DNA from: Sorangium cellulosum
Lineage (GTDB): Bacteria; Myxococcota_A; Polyangia; Polyangiales; Polyangiaceae
DNA: 64,000 nt
Direction of reading: 5' to 3'
Assembly (NCBI RefSeq): GCF_004135735.1
Contig: NZ_CP012670.1
Coordinates: 5,100,501-5,164,500, forward strand
Made by a program: the position numbers and the translations under genes
Shown here: positions 8,438 through 25,352 of the stretch, one piece after another
How positions within the stretch are numbered: position 1 is the stretch's first letter
How the letters are laid out: each line of letters starts with the position of its first letter
Notes under the pieces: generated by a model
The model's database searches: none
Seen by the model: the letters and a program-made list of their open reading frames with translations, nothing else
What the model was told of the DNA's origin: nothing

Positions 8438-8610
8438 GCGCGTTCGTTCAAGATGCCCTGTCGGCCGCGGCGCCGCAATGCTCGCGCTGCGCCCGCGCAG
8501 CGAGGACGCCCGCCGGCGAGGCGCGCCGCGCGTCTCCCCGGCCCAGGCGAAACGCACGGCTCGCCGCGATCCTGCAAGACGAGCCGACCACCGGAGCATG
8601 GGTCCACCGC

Positions 8611-8950
8611 ATGGCCGACCTTGCCGCCCGCCCCGTTACCCCGGCCGAGTACGACCACTTCGCCCGCCTCTTCGTCGAGCTTGACACCAGCGATCCCGGA
8701 CGCCGCCCCGCTCGGATTCGCCGGCTTCGACCCGCTCTACCTACCCGCGCGCGTACCCCTTCGCGTGGCCGCCGCCGATCTCGCCGCGCCACGGCTCGAC
8801 GCCATTCGCCCCCACGCCCCGCCCGACGCGCAGGCCATCTCGGTCACGGTCCAGGACGACGACGCGCTCACGGCCGCCTTTCGCGACGCCGGCGCGCCCA
8901 TCCGGCTGACGACCGCTCATATCCGCGGCCCTCTCCCTGCCCTGGGGTGA
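8611..8950 (+). pseudogene. GNAT acetyltransferase remnant, frameshifted and internally deleted
   Basis: The start (ATG 8611) reads VTPAEYDHFARLFVELDTSD, like the first helix of GNAT N-acetyltransferases. The frame then degenerates. A different frame reads GFAGFDPLYLPARVPLRV and ends TTAHIRGPLPALG, resembling C-terminal parts of GNAT-fold proteins. No acetyl-CoA loop is present between them, so the gene is probably a decayed remnant. The assignment is by resemblance only. Confidence 0.45.
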
Positions 8951-9051
8951 AGCGCGACGGCCGCTTGCGCCCCCGGCGACGTCGCAGGACCGAGATGAAC
9001 CCTTCCCCGGCCTCGCCGGCCGCGCGTCGACCGACGACACACCGCATCAAG

Positions 9052-9462
9052 TCAAGCGCCGCCCTCTATCTCCGCCCCCCGCGTCGCGGACGCATAGGCG
9101 GTGAAGACATACAGCGTAATGAAGACGCTGCCAACGAGCAAGGAAGGAGCGATCGTCGCCAGGATCGAGCGCGTGCCCATGGTGGCGTGCACCCCGTACA
9201 TGAGCCCGAACATCAGCAGAACGGCGCACACGATCCCGAGGATCAACCCCTGCACTGGGGTTCGCCCCAGCCGGAACAGCCAGTCTGCAATCCTGGCCAT
9301 GGCGAACGTCGACGAGAAGCTGAGCACGGCCTGGGCGCCGCCGGCGCGCACCGCCGCGCTCGCCCCGTGACCCCAGTTGCAGAACACCGCCCACGAGCCG
9401 TACGCGAGCGCGGCCGCGAGCGCCAGGACGACCGACGCCCTCCTCCGCCGCGCGCCGCTCAT
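9052..9462 (-). CDS. Small four-helix integral membrane protein, last gene of the NAS-like operon
   Basis: 136 residues with about four transmembrane segments (roughly 8-28, 40-58, 72-95 and 102-125) and an Arg-rich N-terminus that favours a cytoplasmic N-end. The ATG at 9462 overlaps the stop of the GNAT gene (ATGA), so the two are translationally coupled. No transporter family was recognised, although EamA/SMR-type small transporters have similar size and helix number. By position it could export or retain the product of the operon; this is inference. Confidence 0.72.
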   Translation of the reverse strand: MSGARRRRASVVLALAAALAYGSWAVFCNWGHGASAAVRAGGAQAVLSFSSTFAMARIADWLFRLGRTPVQGLILGIVCAVLLMFGLMYGVHATMGTRSILATIAPSLLVGSVFITLYVFTAYASATRGAEIEGGA

Positions 9463-10025
9463 CGGTGTGACGGGTTCGCCGCGAGCCTCGCGACGGGCGC
9501 CCACATGAAGACCCCGGCCTCGGTGCGGCCGCCCACGCGCGCATAGTCGGGGAGCTCGCCGAACGGCGAGAATCCCAGGCGGCGCCACAGCCCCTCGGCG
9601 CGCGTGCCCTTGCGGACGTCGAGGGTCAAAACCTCGATGCCGAGCTCGTGGCAACGCGCGCACAGGGCGCGCAGCCCGGCTTCAAGAATTCCCCTGCCGC
9701 GATGGCGCGGGTGGATCATGCATTTCGACACCTCCCCGAGGTGACGGCAGTTCGGCTGCCCGTTCTGCGACAGCAGCACCATCGCCACCAGCTCGCCGCA
9801 CGACCGCACGACGAGCGCGCGCTTTCTCCCGAGCCGGACGTCCAGGCGGACGCCCTCGAAGAACGGCTCAGCCTCGCCGCCGCGGAGCGGACCGGGGAAG
9901 CCGATGACGTCCTCCGTCTCCAGCACGGCGTTGAACAGCGCGCGGATCTCTCCGGCGAAGCGGGCGTCGATCTCCTCGACCCACGCGATCTCGATGTCCG
10001 CCGAGTCAACCTGTGAACCAAGCAT
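9459..10025 (-). CDS. GNAT-family N-acetyltransferase in the NAS-like operon
   Basis: 188 residues. The acetyl-CoA-binding motif A is visible as CMIHPRHRGRGILEAGLRAL (R-x-x-G-x-G/A type), preceded by the strand VAMVLLSQ and followed by LGIEVLTLDVRKGTRAEGLW and the usual LGF. GNAT enzymes transfer an acyl group from acyl-CoA to an amine. The ATG at 10025 lies inside the end of the DJ-1/PfpI gene (20-base overlap), and its own stop overlaps the next ATG. The tight packing implies one transcript and suggests that it acylates an amine made or modified by the upstream enzymes. The substrate is unknown. Confidence 0.82.
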   Translation of the reverse strand: MLGSQVDSADIEIAWVEEIDARFAGEIRALFNAVLETEDVIGFPGPLRGGEAEPFFEGVRLDVRLGRKRALVVRSCGELVAMVLLSQNGQPNCRHLGEVSKCMIHPRHRGRGILEAGLRALCARCHELGIEVLTLDVRKGTRAEGLWRRLGFSPFGELPDYARVGGRTEAGVFMWAPVARLAANPSHR

Positions 10026-10599
10026 CTGATCTGTACTCCATCCAGTCCGCGGTGTTCCTCGCCGCTTCCTCTCCGAGGAGCCGGGCGACCAGGAATAGCG
10101 ACGCGTCGAGGCCCGCCGAGATGCCCGCCGAGGTGATGACATTGCCCTCCCTGACAAACCGCTTGCCCTCCTGGACGCTGACGGTGGGCTCGAGCGCCTT
10201 GAGGGCCGCGATGTCCGAGCGATGCGTGATGGCGCGGCGGTCCTTGAGCAGCCCCGAGCTCGCCAGAAATAACGCCCCGGAACAGATGGACATGACCCAT
10301 GTCGCCTTGCGCGCGGCGGTGCGGATCCACATCATCGCGCGCGGATCGCTCTCGATCAGCGGCTCCACCCCCGGCCCGCCCGGCAGCACGAGCACGTCCG
10401 GCGGCGCCGCGGGGAGGTCCGCTGCGGAGGGGCAGACCACGAGCCCGTTGCGGGCCGTGACCGAGCTCTTCACGCCGACGGTACGAACCGAGATGGTCCC
10501 GGGGACAATCCGCGTCCCCGCGAGCGAGAGGGTCTCGAACGGGGCAGCAAAATCAAGGACCTCGACGCCGTCGAAGAGGAGAATGGCTACGTTGTGCAT
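10006..10599 (-). CDS. DJ-1/PfpI-family protein (isonitrile-hydratase-like) in the NAS-like operon
   Basis: 197 residues covering a complete class-I glutamine-amidotransferase-like DJ-1/PfpI domain. It begins MHNVAILLFDGVEVLDFAAP, has PDVLVLPGGPG, and the nucleophile elbow SICSGALFLA with Cys106, followed by THRSD. This subfamily includes isonitrile hydratases, amidases, glyoxalase-III-like enzymes and the N-terminal domains of some AraC regulators; no DNA-binding domain is attached here. The start is 17 bases after the stop of the diiron-oxidase gene. Hydration of a nitrogenous product of the oxidase is possible but speculative. Confidence 0.87.
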   Translation of the reverse strand: MHNVAILLFDGVEVLDFAAPFETLSLAGTRIVPGTISVRTVGVKSSVTARNGLVVCPSAADLPAAPPDVLVLPGGPGVEPLIESDPRAMMWIRTAARKATWVMSICSGALFLASSGLLKDRRAITHRSDIAALKALEPTVSVQEGKRFVREGNVITSAGISAGLDASLFLVARLLGEEAARNTADWMEYRSDAWFTG

Positions 10600-10616
10600 G
10601 GGATATCTCTCAGCCT

Positions 10617-11324
10617 TCAGCTCATCTCACGATAAGCCTGGCCGATGCCCTCGTACATCCTGTAGAAGAGCTTGCAGGTGTGGTCCACCGCGTGGAGGGC
10701 TTCCTCCTGCATCTGCTCGGTGTCGCACAGGTCCGACACGAGCTCGATCCCCTCACGGACATGGCCGACGTCCTCCTTCTGGTGCACCGAGAAGAAGAGC
10801 GCGTCCTTGTCCGAGAGGCCATACCGCCGCCCGAGCGCGGAGTGGCGCGCCTCGCCCGCCCTGGTCTCGAGGTTCTGGCCCTCGCTCGCGATCATCACGG
10901 CCGCCGCGCCGATGTGGTAGCGCCTCGGGTCGCGGACGTGCTCAAGGCGATACTCGATGAGCTCGCGGGTCGCCGGGAGCGGCTCCACGGCGTCGCGCTC
11001 CTCGTCGGAGACGCCGATCGCCCGGATGAAGTCGTGCATCAGCTCGACGTGGTTCTTCGTCCTCGAGAGGCGTCCGGTCTCCTCCTCGTAGAGGTTGTGC
11101 AGCAGCAGGCGCTTGTGCCTGGGCAACGGACAGTAGAAGAAGAGGTTCTCCACGTAGATCAAGAAATGCTTCGTGAGCTGGTACCCCTGCAGCGTCATGA
11201 AACGGAGCAGCTTCCAGTTGGGCTCTCCGACCATCAGATCGGCGAAGATCGGGTTATCCAGGGTGATGTTGCGTTCGAGCGTGCCCCGGAGCGCGCTCTT
11301 GAACTCGTCCTTACCAAGGAGCAT
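10617..11324 (-). CDS. Haem-oxygenase-like diiron oxidase (CADD/TenA/PqqC-like)
   Basis: 235 residues, the usual size of the CADD/TenA/PqqC fold. The metal site of haem-oxygenase-like diiron oxidases (HDO) can be read: an Glu cluster in LYEEETG (80-82), His92 in KNHVELM, Glu148 in IASEGQN, and HxxxDxxH as His181, Asp185 and His188 in VHQKEDVGHV. Known HDOs oxidise amino or fatty acids (UndA, BesC, SznF) or make p-aminobenzoate (CADD). The start at 11324 follows GAGGG and lies 10 bases after the NAS-like gene. The frame is open upstream to 11411, but that would overlap the preceding gene. It is probably a cytosolic O2-dependent enzyme acting on the NAS-like product or its precursor (inference). 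Confidence 0.83.
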   Translation of the reverse strand: MLLGKDEFKSALRGTLERNITLDNPIFADLMVGEPNWKLLRFMTLQGYQLTKHFLIYVENLFFYCPLPRHKRLLLHNLYEEETGRLSRTKNHVELMHDFIRAIGVSDEERDAVEPLPATRELIEYRLEHVRDPRRYHIGAAAVMIASEGQNLETRAGEARHSALGRRYGLSDKDALFFSVHQKEDVGHVREGIELVSDLCDTEQMQEEALHAVDHTCKLFYRMYEGIGQAYREMS

Positions 11325-11334
11325 GGCGCCACCC

Positions 11335-12222
11335 TCACGGTTCGTGCCTGGCGAGCAGCAGCGAGGAGATCGTGTCTCCGTGATGCAGCGCGAGGCGTCT
11401 ATCAGCGACACGGAAATGCTTGAGATCTTCTGCCGGGTTCATCGGCTCGTATACGATGGTCCGCAGGCCGAGCGAGGTCCGACAGATGATGCGGCAATCG
11501 GGGCGCGCCGACTCGCTCACCTGCGCGAGGATCTCCGCCTTCGGCTTGGCCAGCAGCGCGATGAGGACCATGTCGTGACGGGAGGCGTCCACCGCCGCCC
11601 CGTCCGTGAGCGAGACGCCGATCCGATCTCGGAGCGACAGCCGCTCGAGAAGCGTCCTCGACTGCGCGACCGCGCTCGCATCGATGTCGATGCAGTCGAC
11701 GGGGACGCCGAGGTACTCGTGAAGGAGGATGGCGCTGACCGGCACCGGCCCCGAGCCGATGAACAGCGCCCGCGCGGGCTTCGCTCCCCCGAGGAGGTCG
11801 ACCTCGCGCTCGATGAGCCGCCGGAAGCGCGGCGTGAGCCTGTAGGAATCGATGCTCGCAGCCGTCCCGAGGCTCTGGATGAATCGCCTCTCGAGCTCCG
11901 TCTCCCAGAGCCCATAGGCCACGTGCTGGAGCGTGAGCAAGTGGGAGGAGAGCCCGTTGAGGAACATCTCCGCGACGAGGCCATGATCGTCGAGCGAGAA
12001 GACCATCTCCTCGATCGAGCCAACATGTGGGTCGAGCTCGGTGAAGCGCTGCAACCGGCGCCTAGTCTCGTTCAACAGCCGCTCCAGCGACTGAAATCGC
12101 CTGTAGATATCGGCCCCCGGCTCGGAAGTCGACGCAAACGACGGATAACCACCATCCTCGCTCGACCTACGTCCCGCACGCGAAGCGATCAGCGGATCCA
12201 CATCCAGCCTCCCCGGCGACAT
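11335..12222 (-). CDS. Nicotianamine-synthase-like aminobutyryltransferase
   Basis: 295 residues. The SAM-binding signature FIGSGPVPVSAILL (154-167), the acidic loop CIDIDASAV (177-185) and the late segment CRTSLGLRTIVYEP (247-260) match nicotianamine synthase and the bacterial staphylopine/pseudopaline CntL group. These transfer the 2-aminobutyrate part of SAM to an amine instead of a methyl group. The first 60 residues are polar and poorly conserved, so the true start may be internal; no clear ribosome site precedes the ATG at 12222. It is the first gene of five closely packed genes and lies behind a good promoter. No opine-type dehydrogenase (CntM) or ABC importer is nearby, so a classical CntL-CntM metallophore is not supported. 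Confidence 0.8.
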   Translation of the reverse strand: MSPGRLDVDPLIASRAGRRSSEDGGYPSFASTSEPGADIYRRFQSLERLLNETRRRLQRFTELDPHVGSIEEMVFSLDDHGLVAEMFLNGLSSHLLTLQHVAYGLWETELERRFIQSLGTAASIDSYRLTPRFRRLIEREVDLLGGAKPARALFIGSGPVPVSAILLHEYLGVPVDCIDIDASAVAQSRTLLERLSLRDRIGVSLTDGAAVDASRHDMVLIALLAKPKAEILAQVSESARPDCRIICRTSLGLRTIVYEPMNPAEDLKHFRVADRRLALHHGDTISSLLLARHEP

Positions 12223-12303
12223 TCGCGTCGCACCAATACCTCGCCGTCAGGATATCCCTCGGATCGTATTACCCCGCGGCGCGCGATAGGGTGAACGGAC
12301 CGG

Positions 12304-12332
12304 AATGTACGGCGGAGCACCGACAGTGTCAA
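12304..12332 (-). promoter_or_regulatory. Sigma70-like promoter of the NAS-like operon
   Basis: On the minus strand TTGACA (12332-12327) is followed by 17 bases and TACATT (12309-12304), close to the consensus -35/-10 pair with ideal spacing. The predicted start of transcription is near 12297, about 75 bases before the ATG at 12222. The surrounding DNA is clearly more AT-rich than the genes. Confidence 0.6.
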
Positions 12333-12472
12333 CACGTGAGTGATTAGAACACGAGACCATCATCTGTTCTGCACCCTGAGCATGCGACGCGCCCCCGATG
12401 TCGAGACGTGGCAACAAAATCGACATGACAACGAAAACCACCTGAAACATGGCCCCATGAATCAACGGCCCT

Positions 12473-12868
12473 TTACAATCGCTCGCGGAGCGGACCTGGC
12501 TCGAATTGAACTTTACAGCAGCAACAGAAGGACGATGGCGCTGGAGCGCGGAGGTGCGTCGCTGCCACGATGATCCTGGTCGAGTTGCGGGCGAGGCGGT
12601 TGGCCTGGTCGCGCCGGCAGGAGAGCCCGCGTACGGCGAGGCGCGAGTCCAGCGGGGCCGCAGCGCGCGCGCTGCTGGAGCGCATGGGGTCGTACCGGGG
12701 CAAGCTGCGGAAGGCGCCCAGCAGGACGTCCTGGCACAGGTCGTCGAGGTCGTCCTCGGCGACGCCGAGGAACCGGAGCATGCCAGGGAGGACGTGAACG
12801 GCGGTCGCGTGCAGGGACGCCCAGGCGCTGTGCTGGACCGGGTCGGTCGGAGGAGGAGAAGGGCTCAT
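12473..12868 (-). pseudogene. Truncated ECF-type sigma factor (region 2 only)
   Basis: A 131-residue frame beginning MSPSPPPTDPVQHSAWASLH. It contains LGVAEDDLDDLCQDVLLGAF and RSLPRYDPMRSSSARAA, which is sigma-70 region 2 as found in myxobacterial ECF-like factors. After about residue 80 the text becomes unlike region 2.4 or 4, and there is no sigma4 helix-turn-helix before the stop. It is probably a 3' truncated remnant; the truncation point lies next to the AT-rich stretch at 12250-12480. A frameshift hiding a longer gene was looked for and not found. Confidence 0.55.
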
Positions 12869-12916
12869 ACTCAGAGTTACGGGGCGTCTCCCGTGGCCGT
12901 CACAGAATCGGACCGG

Positions 12917-13040
12917 CCATCCGGACACGCCCCCTCCCATCCGGACACGCACCCCGCCCATCCGGACATCCCCCCGCCCATCTGGACACGCCCCCCGCCC
13001 ATCTGGACACGCCGGCCCGCCATCTGGACATCCCAACTCG
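12917..13040. repeat. Tandem array of about six 20-21-bp units, core CCATCYGGACAY
   Basis: Six units starting CCATCCGGACA or CCATCTGGACA with C-rich spacers of 8-10 bases, between the sigma-factor remnant and the FAD dehydrogenase gene. Spacing is 20-21 bp. The units are too short and have no separate spacers for a CRISPR array. Confidence 0.75.
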
Positions 13041-13271
13041 ACCCACTCGCCCCCGGTACCCCGCCCTCGCGTCCAGATCCGGCGTTTGCGTTGGCGAGGA
13101 ATCGCGGCGAACACCCTCTCCGGGGGCCGGGCAGCCCGTCGAGGCCTCTCGTCCGTGCCCCGCAGCGCCCCGCAACCGGCCCTCCCGCCCCCGCCCGCCC
13201 CCTCCGGGCGGGCGAGCCGTGAAGCCCGCTTGCCCTTGCCCTCCCGGCGACATCGCAGTACCGAGCCGGCC

Positions 13272-14678
<1,407 letters not shown>

Positions 14679-23763: not shown

Positions 23764-24897
23764 CTATGAGTGGATCGCGCAGAGGGGCGCGTTCCGGCTC
23801 TGGGACGTGAGCGGCAGAGGTCGCGCCGCGGCGGCGGGCGTGGCGCCAGGCTCGGGCGCGTCGCTGGTCGTGCCCGTGTGCGGCGGCGCAGCGGCCTCGC
23901 CGGCAGCGTCGTCTACGGACAGCGGGTTGATGGCGACCGAGGCAGGCGGCCTGCGTACGACGGGCGGACCGTTCGGGAAGCGTTCAGGATGCGCAGCGTA
24001 GGCCGCATCGAGGGCGACCTGTCGACGGGCCGCGATGTCTTCAACGCGGCCGTAGAATACATCAGCAGGTGTGAAGAGCGCAAGGCCAGAATGCTGATGA
24101 AGGTCGTTATACCAGCCGAAGAACTCCTGGCACCACGCTCGTGCATGAGTCAGCGATGCAAAGCGATCCGGATAGTCGGGCTGGTACTTGAGCGTCTTGA
24201 ACTGCGCCTCGGAGAACGCGTTGTCATCGCTGACGTGAGGCCGGCTGAAGCTACGACCGACGCCGAGGGAGCCGAAGAGCTGGGCGAGCCCCTCCGACCT
24301 CATCGCGGAGCCGCGGTCGGCGTGCACCGTGAGCGAGCCGGGCTCGACGCCGTGGCGGGCGACGGTCTCCGCGAAGAGCTGCTCGGCAAGCTCCGCGCTC
24401 TCGCGCTCGGCGAGCAGCCAGCCAACGGTCATGCGGCTGAACAGGTCGAGGACGACGTACAGGCAGTAGAAGACCCCGGGCAGCGGCCCGCGCAGCTTGG
24501 TGATGTCCCACGTCCAGATCTGGTTGGGGGCCGTGGCGGTGAGCGTCGGTTTGGCATGCTTCATCGGCCCACGCTGCGCGCGCCGCTCGCCGCTCTCGCC
24601 GGAGGCGGCGAGCAGCCGGTACATCGTGCGGATGGAGGCGAGATAGACGCCGCGCGACAGCAGCGTCGCGTAGACCTCCGGCGGGGGCTGGTCGACGAAC
24701 TCGTCGCTGTGCAGCACGTCGAGCACGGCCTTCCGCTCGGGGTCGCTGAGCCGGCGTGGACTCGGAGCGGGCCGGGGCGGCGCGGGAGGCGGCGCGGGCC
24801 GGGTCTGCCGGTAGAGCGTAGCGCGGCTGACGCCGAGCGCCTCACACGCCTGCGCGATGGGGACGTGCGGGTCATCGAGCTGCTCGATGACGTCCAT
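23764..24897 (-). CDS. IS3-family transposase OrfB (DDE integrase domain)
   Basis: 377 residues with an N-terminal helix-turn-helix part (IAQACEALGVSRATLYRQTR) and an rve integrase core. The catalytic DDE residues are in IWTWDITKL, LTVHADRGSAM and DNAFSEAQFKTLK. Near the end are QEFFGWYNDLHQHSGLALFT and PADVFYG, typical of the family. Its ATG shares a base with the OrfA stop (TGATG), and the frame is open upstream to an A8G stretch, so it is probably also made as an OrfAB fusion. The gene looks intact. Confidence 0.92.
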   Translation of the reverse strand: MDVIEQLDDPHVPIAQACEALGVSRATLYRQTRPAPPPAPPRPAPSPRRLSDPERKAVLDVLHSDEFVDQPPPEVYATLLSRGVYLASIRTMYRLLAASGESGERRAQRGPMKHAKPTLTATAPNQIWTWDITKLRGPLPGVFYCLYVVLDLFSRMTVGWLLAERESAELAEQLFAETVARHGVEPGSLTVHADRGSAMRSEGLAQLFGSLGVGRSFSRPHVSDDNAFSEAQFKTLKYQPDYPDRFASLTHARAWCQEFFGWYNDLHQHSGLALFTPADVFYGRVEDIAARRQVALDAAYAAHPERFPNGPPVVRRPPASVAINPLSVDDAAGEAAAPPHTGTTSDAPEPGATPAAAARPLPLTSQSRNAPLCAIHS

Positions 24898-25352
24898 CAG
24901 CGCTCTCCGTCGGTCGTGAGATTGACGCCCAGAATGGCAGAGACTTTTTTTTGGAGGTCGATGAGCTTCTCAGCGAGCGCGAGCTTCTCCTCGAGCCGCG
25001 CCGAGCGCTTCTCGAGCTCGGCGATGCGCCGGTCCTTGGCGTCCTGCTTCGGCTTGCGGCCGGGCTTGCGCTCCGCGAGAGCCTCGCTGCCGTGGAGGGC
25101 GAGCTGCTTGCGCCACGCCGCCAGGAGGGAGCTGTAGATGCCCTCGCGGCGCAGCAGCGCCTCGATGTCCCCGCGCTGGGTGCACGCGGCCGCCTCGCGA
25201 ACGATGCGCAGCTTCTCCGCCGCCGAGAACTTCCGCCTCTTGCCCGGCTTCGGCACGCTCTCGACGGCGGCGCCACTCGGGCGGGGAGCAGCGCCCTGCG
25301 CCGCTGGGGCGGGGGTAGGATCGACGGATCGGAGATGGGAAGGCTTCGGCAC
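24897..25352 (-). CDS. IS3-family transposase OrfA
   Basis: 151 residues. The helix-turn-helix segment is KRRKFSAAEKLRIVREAAAC, followed by LLRREGIYSSLLAAWRKQ and a leucine-zipper-like coiled coil (RRIAELEKRSARLEEKLALA), as in IS3 OrfA proteins that bind the element ends. The 3' part contains A8G on the coding strand, a probable slippery site. Confidence 0.9.
   Translation of the reverse strand: MPKPSHLRSVDPTPAPAAQGAAPRPSGAAVESVPKPGKRRKFSAAEKLRIVREAAACTQRGDIEALLRREGIYSSLLAAWRKQLALHGSEALAERKPGRKPKQDAKDRRIAELEKRSARLEEKLALAEKLIDLQKKVSAILGVNLTTDGER
24944..24952 (-). promoter_or_regulatory. A8G slippery sequence for -1 frameshifting (OrfAB)
   Basis: Eight A followed by G on the coding strand, about 45 bases before the OrfA stop. 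A -1 shift here enters the OrfB frame, which has no stop between this site and the OrfB start. A-rich slippery heptamers are a known way in which IS3-family elements make the active fusion transposase. Confidence 0.7.

Follow-up and report, generated by a model that had tools for sequence, protein, structure and literature searches.

The stretch of DNA analysed here (the window) comprises 64,000 nucleotides of the 11.26-Mb chromosome of the soil bacterium Sorangium cellulosum (NZ_CP012670.1, positions 5,100,501 to 5,164,500) and harbors a minus-strand run of five tightly packed genes extending over about 3.2 kb, from 12222 down to 9052. From first to last, these encode a protein resembling nicotianamine synthase (NAS), a haem-oxygenase-like dimetal oxidase (HDO), a DJ-1/PfpI protein, a GNAT N-acyltransferase and a small membrane protein (Table 1). 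The initial annotation had described a five-gene operon at this place, and its coordinates, strand and spacing hold when checked on the sequence: the NAS-like and HDO genes are separated by 10 bases and the HDO and DJ-1 genes by 17, the DJ-1 and GNAT genes overlap by 20 bases, and the GNAT and membrane-protein genes by 4 (ATGA). As read from the sequence, the stop codon of the NAS-like gene and the likely ribosome-binding site for the HDO gene overlap. Some 80 bases upstream of the initial ATG lies a sigma-70-like site, the only one between 8900 and 12700 (against a mean of 0.2 in 50 shuffles), which is a consensus match and no proof of a promoter; none falls within the operon itself. A scan of 8500-14000 against Rfam gave no match. 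Four of the five proteins exceed the curated Pfam cut-off, and PHROGs returned generic matches only, to the DJ-1 and GNAT proteins.

Table 1. Operon genes, control region and insertion boundaries (window coordinates).
Feature	Position	Strand	Basis
Candidate sigma-70-like promoter, TTGACA-17-TACATT	12304..12332	-	10/12 consensus match; ahead of first gene
NAS-like SAM aminocarboxypropyltransferase-fold protein, 295 aa	11335..12222	-	Pfam, alignment, model
HDO, 235 aa	10617..11324	-	Pfam, alignment, model
DJ-1/PfpI protein, 197 aa	10006..10599	-	Pfam, alignment
GNAT N-acyltransferase, 188 aa	9459..10025	-	Pfam, structure-sequence match
Small membrane protein, 136 aa	9052..9462	-	Hydropathy
Insertion relative to other Sorangium genomes	9021..13234	.	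Same-site comparison with sister genomes
Imperfect direct repeat, left copy (repeats the FAD-linked oxidase gene start in truncated form)	8964..9020	.	
Imperfect direct repeat, right copy (at the beginning of the intact FAD-linked oxidase gene)	13235..13298	.	

The first protein matches the NAS family of Pfam (PF03059; 3.5e-15, 56.5 bits against a cut-off of 27.1), with an N-terminal helical domain and a Rossmann-type S-adenosylmethionine (SAM) domain that together span the whole chain. The motif FIGSGPVPVSAILL, already singled out in the initial annotation, occupies residues 154-167. In a HMMER alignment, E107 corresponds to the catalytic Glu81 of the archaeal thermonicotianamine synthase MtNAS (PDB 3fpe/3fpj), and this residue is invariant in a 20-row alignment (A6). 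Glu81 and Tyr107 of MtNAS are named as deprotonating the substrate nitrogen in the accessible part of PMC10491745. By these sequence features, the protein is a NAS-fold enzyme with the catalytic Glu, as had been proposed, and transfer of aminobutyrate from SAM is predicted. Translation may start at a GTG at 12201, giving a protein of 288 aa, because a Shine-Dalgarno-like GGGGAGG precedes this codon and residues 1-33 of the longer form have a pLDDT (predicted local distance difference test) below 50.

The NAS fold brings to mind a metallophore operon of opine or nicotianamine type, in which the HDO would take the place of the dehydrogenase CntM. In the accessible parts of PMC10491745 and PMC7438024, the described products of known bacterial NAS-like enzymes are metallophores, and acetyltransferases occur in some zincophore clusters. 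However, the CntL equivalog model gives only 21.8 bits on the window protein against a cut-off of 350, and in contrast to CntL/opine metallophore clusters the operon contains no CntM, racemase or uptake transporter. The lack of a CntM dehydrogenase and a transporter had been remarked from the start; among the five genes there is no dehydrogenase by Pfam and no uptake gene of ABC or TonB type, whereas both plasmid NAS loci with CntM also hold an ABC transporter. A metallophore role is thus improbable.

The second protein matches Haem_oxygenas_2 (PF14518; 8.4e-23, 81.5 bits against a cut-off of 28.9). Alignment to CADD and 25 relatives reveals the full set of three His and three carboxylate ligands (E81, H92, E148, H181, D185, H188), the last three forming the HxxxDxxH motif reported in the initial annotation, and the predicted model superposes on CADD. 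Judged by alignment and model, the protein has a haem-oxygenase-like fold with a complete ligand set, and two-metal binding and O2 activation are predicted. That it is itself a self-sacrificing p-aminobenzoate synthase of CADD type is, despite the common fold, extremely unlikely: it scores 83.4 bits against the cut-off of 200 for this subfamily (TIGR04305), and in contrast to CADD and NePabS, which possess the sacrificial Tyr and Lys (Tyr27 and Lys152, according to the accessible part of PMC11965152), it has F27 and R160 at these positions in a HMMER alignment. The HDOs of known small-molecule pathways (UndA, BesC, HrmI, FlcD, PolF) share 13-18% identity with it, and no NAS-fold partner is described for them in the accessible portions of the literature searched. 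Relatives occur in 39 of 282 genomes of the phylum; outside the window, the highest score is 79 bits, at 31% identity. Around the top three (L102-L104) are genes for kinases, a peptidase, a CoA-transferase and a flavin monooxygenase-like protein, with no common theme.

The DJ-1 protein (DJ-1_PfpI; 3.5e-22, 79.4 bits against a cut-off of 26.6) has the isonitrile hydratase InhA, of the DJ-1 superfamily, as its nearest solved structure (94.6 bits). Its D16 and C106 align with Asp17 and Cys101 of that enzyme, whose roles are taken from the accessible part of PMC10971408. All four further DJ-1-domain proteins compared from the genus have the same pair, some of them in much longer reading frames; it is therefore not diagnostic of isonitrile hydratase, and this assignment is weakened. 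The GNAT (Acetyltransf_1; 6.7e-11, 42.9 bits against a cut-off of 20.7) is nearest, among solved structures, to the tabtoxin resistance protein TTR (1ghe), a weak similarity of 39.9 bits. Plasmid relatives of the GNAT adjoin a diaminobutyrate transaminase and an N-succinylarginine dihydrolase in the two neighbourhoods opened, of 19. The last gene indeed encodes a membrane protein, but the four helices initially assigned to it are reduced by hydropathy to three clear segments (10-28, 73-91 and 99-117). It has a sub-threshold Pfam match only (TMEM107, 0.021) and relatives in 11 other of 317 genomes of the class.

All five genes lie within one insertion, which bears out the operon-like unit that had been proposed. 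The insertion is flanked by an imperfect direct repeat, whose copies are 87% identical between 8964-8994 and 13235-13265 and 95% between 9000-9020 and 13278-13298. The FAD-linked oxidase gene just upstream of the operon (13086-14678) has 90-92% identity in five other genomes of the genus. Four further Sorangium genomes do not have the operon block at this site (G360, G361, G362 and G363; G364 lay outside the comparison): G360 and G363 lack it, and G361 and G362 carry about 5 kb of other genes there, with SIR2_2, EAD7 and protein kinase domains (L122:8447-13535, L123:8351-12980). The site is a hotspot, at which two sister genomes carry defence-like genes. The insertion is low in GC, with 0.669 for the five genes and 0.579 for the leader, whereas the neighbouring genes have 0.759 and 0.714. 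That the five genes are one transferred unit is well supported. The history of the insertion is not one clean event, since its right-hand part, 12644-13094, is 88-90% like other stretches of this chromosome, 6550194-6550769 among them. Short repeats surround CCGCCCATCYGGACA within 12644-13094, the frame at 6550194-6550769 looks by eye like the start of a sigma factor, and an integrase/transposase gene (rve) is found at 23767-24969 of the window, about 10 kb from the insertion.

The occupants of this site in G361 and G362 suggest that the block could be hotspot cargo with a role in defence or competition, whether through a small molecule or in another way. Of the two sister sets, that of G361 was compared with PADLOC, which found ThsA-like SIR2 and PD-T4-6-like kinase matches. 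Among the five window proteins PADLOC gave no convincing match (only the NAS-like protein, with 20.1 bits to a model of 492 positions), and a shared site is weak evidence of a shared role; little probability attaches to a defence function of this kind.

The operon probably makes a small molecule, and we infer both its product and, from the families of the enzymes, the chemistry and order of the steps. The preferred reading, to which a probability of roughly 0.45 is given, is that of a horizontally acquired five-gene operon making and handling a small amine or amino-acid metabolite, with the HDO, DJ-1 protein, GNAT and membrane protein as its core and the NAS-like enzyme as an interchangeable substrate supplier. 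The NAS-like enzyme would transfer one or more 3-amino-3-carboxypropyl groups of SAM to an amine, an amino acid or itself (in the last case as an azetidine), and the HDO would then desaturate, cleave or N-oxygenate this product using O2. The GNAT would acylate the free amine, either as tailoring or for self-protection, the DJ-1 protein could hydrate or hydrolyse a reactive product via its Cys, and the membrane protein may export the product. NAS and HDO are about as likely as not to share a pathway. A more specific version, which appears unlikely in its entirety, holds that in a new kind of pathway the NAS-fold enzyme hands a SAM-derived aminocarboxypropyl adduct straight to the HDO, that cleavage or desaturation there would yield a reactive amino acid of non-protein type (such as an azetidine, an isonitrile, or an amino acid with an alkenyl group or an oxidised nitrogen), that the GNAT and a DJ-1 hydratase would provide self-protection, and that the block would be mobile via the defence-gene hotspot as a chemical weapon or defence.

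Several observations weigh against the preferred reading. Two of them concern the NAS-like protein, in which F133 stands at the position of MtNAS Tyr107, and which forms a lone long branch in the NAS tree, where a fully supported branch sets four CntL-side rows (L018, L025, L026, L029) apart from the rest. L030 likewise has no Tyr107, nor do the CntL-side rows of alignment A4, so this residue is not universal in the family. The window protein differs from MtNAS in this residue as well as in sharing an operon with an HDO. A further point is that this pairing does not recur. An HDO profile was run over 32 NAS-like loci, or 29 once three loci from genomes already represented were dropped; these 29 include the second NAS gene of the window genome, and three of them span only about 5 kb. 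Three other loci (L021, L022 and L023, from G201, G024 and G153) had been excluded before counting; judged by their sequence motifs, they probably encode PrmC/PrmA-like methyltransferases. No HDO was present in any of the 29 loci, in the stretches as examined. As a control, the profile recovered three known HDO loci, two of which are in its training alignment and one of which (L151) is independent. The NAS-HDO pair is therefore a singleton. The initial annotation had named NAS-like genes lacking an HDO neighbour as a finding that would refute its pathway, and all 29 loci speak against the pairing in this way, although they include no ortholog (identity in the aligned region is 38% or less). 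Its interpretation is thus supported in part, for the gene unit, the folds and the ligands.

Wider searches were aimed at an ortholog of the NAS-like protein. A pattern scan of genome contigs with the NAS-like protein alone yielded no relative, and with alignment A1 it gave 165 pattern matches and 21 relatives, with 37% identity in the best segment. Among 317 genomes of the class, eight have a NAS-like match (one judged false) and none has an ortholog besides the window; a plasmid search for NAS-like relatives added 7 records. PF14518 occurs in 14 of 25 genomes or records with NAS-like genes, and the 20 matches obtained as loci do not overlap NAS loci, within which the HDO profile gave no match either.

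Relatives of four of the five genes are found side by side on contig C696 of G425, a distant relative (L151:4786-10736). The cluster was reached via the membrane protein and represents one of six relatives whose surroundings were opened; near the remaining five, no relative of the operon's other genes occurs, which also counts against the preferred reading. So does the state of the cluster itself. A single frame runs from HDO residues 2-145 (43% identity, the best HDO relative seen) into residues 48-118 of the membrane protein (35%), and the HDO half keeps two of the six metal ligands; the GNAT (36%) and the DJ-1 protein (45%) are encoded on the opposite strand, and no NAS match was found in this genome, which is 81% complete. 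With four of six ligands lost and a fusion to the membrane protein, this protein cannot function like an ordinary HDO, except if the fusion is an artefact of assembly in this metagenome-assembled genome; the HDO half thus appears to be a gene that is broken or has been repurposed, or else such an artefact. Unlike TTR, the GNAT relative of G425 shares its frame with AMP-binding and carrier-protein domains (a carrier-protein ligase), and the DJ-1 gene adjoins an amino-acid permease. Acylation of an amine and handling of amino acids are favoured by this link of the GNAT to a carrier and by the permease. Since relatives of these four genes cluster there and no NAS was found, the HDO looks tied more firmly to the GNAT, DJ-1 and membrane proteins than to NAS.

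The G425 cluster also supports the main rival explanation, in which the functional unit consists of these four proteins only and the NAS-like gene is a chance neighbour with its own job. The varied company of NAS-like genes elsewhere, beside CntM and transporters, PhyH and aminotransferase, ATP-grasp or AdoMetDC-like genes, points the same way. However, the NAS-like and HDO genes, with only 10 bases between them, share a strand, a promoter-like site and an insertion, and the overlap of the NAS-like stop codon with the likely HDO ribosome-binding site also speaks against mere adjacency. Chance adjacency is the strongest of the alternatives, albeit a rather unlikely one.

Other NAS-like loci show arrangements of their own. 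A second NAS-like gene with an FPYxxNY motif occurs in Sorangium, in the window genome (L014, C1:10501001-10521000) and at L015, L016 and L017. An aminotransferase of class I/II lies beside it in all four loci, and a PhyH-type dioxygenase clearly in three (the match in L015 is fragment-like); NAS and PhyH also occur together in Pyxidicoccus fallax (L037). The plant mugineic-acid set consists of NAS, NAAT and IDS. The combination of NAS, aminotransferase and iron/2-oxoglutarate dioxygenase recalls this set, and a bacterial phytosiderophore-like pathway is possible. In Deltaproteobacteria UBA2409 (L030:6411-7666), a NAS-like gene overlaps a frame resembling AdoMet decarboxylase (PF02675; 8e-7 and 29.8 bits in Pfam, none in NCBIfam), and the group donated there is possibly aminopropyl rather than aminocarboxypropyl. 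Decarboxylated SAM as the donor in the window, an idea taken from this locus, was rejected because the operon contains no such gene; likewise, the F133 common to the window protein and L030 was rejected as a sign of one subfamily because the tree does not join them. In G360 (L018:8434-10226), a CntL-side NAS-like gene adjoins an ATP-grasp ligase, with no CntM in the frames scanned. A 626-aa frame of Gottesmanbacteria (L032:6680-8557) has an N-terminal NAS-like part followed, by eye only, by an apparent second SAM-type domain.

The initial annotation knew of no described pathway with this gene set, and the NAS-HDO combination was likewise not found in the literature searched (spelling variants such as 'haem' and subscription papers fell outside its scope). 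The enzymes of the operon are all divergent members of known families, and their combination is supported by one genome. Bacterial NAS-fold enzymes with described products have been read almost wholly as makers of metallophores. If the preferred reading is true, a NAS-fold enzyme working with a dimetal oxidase, without dehydrogenase or uptake genes, would extend both families: the aminocarboxypropyl group of SAM would gain a new use, and HDOs a new class of substrate. Because the set is so small, the question is testable by expression and metabolomics. The second cluster, free of NAS, suggests that the set of HDO, DJ-1 protein, GNAT and membrane protein can take different front ends.

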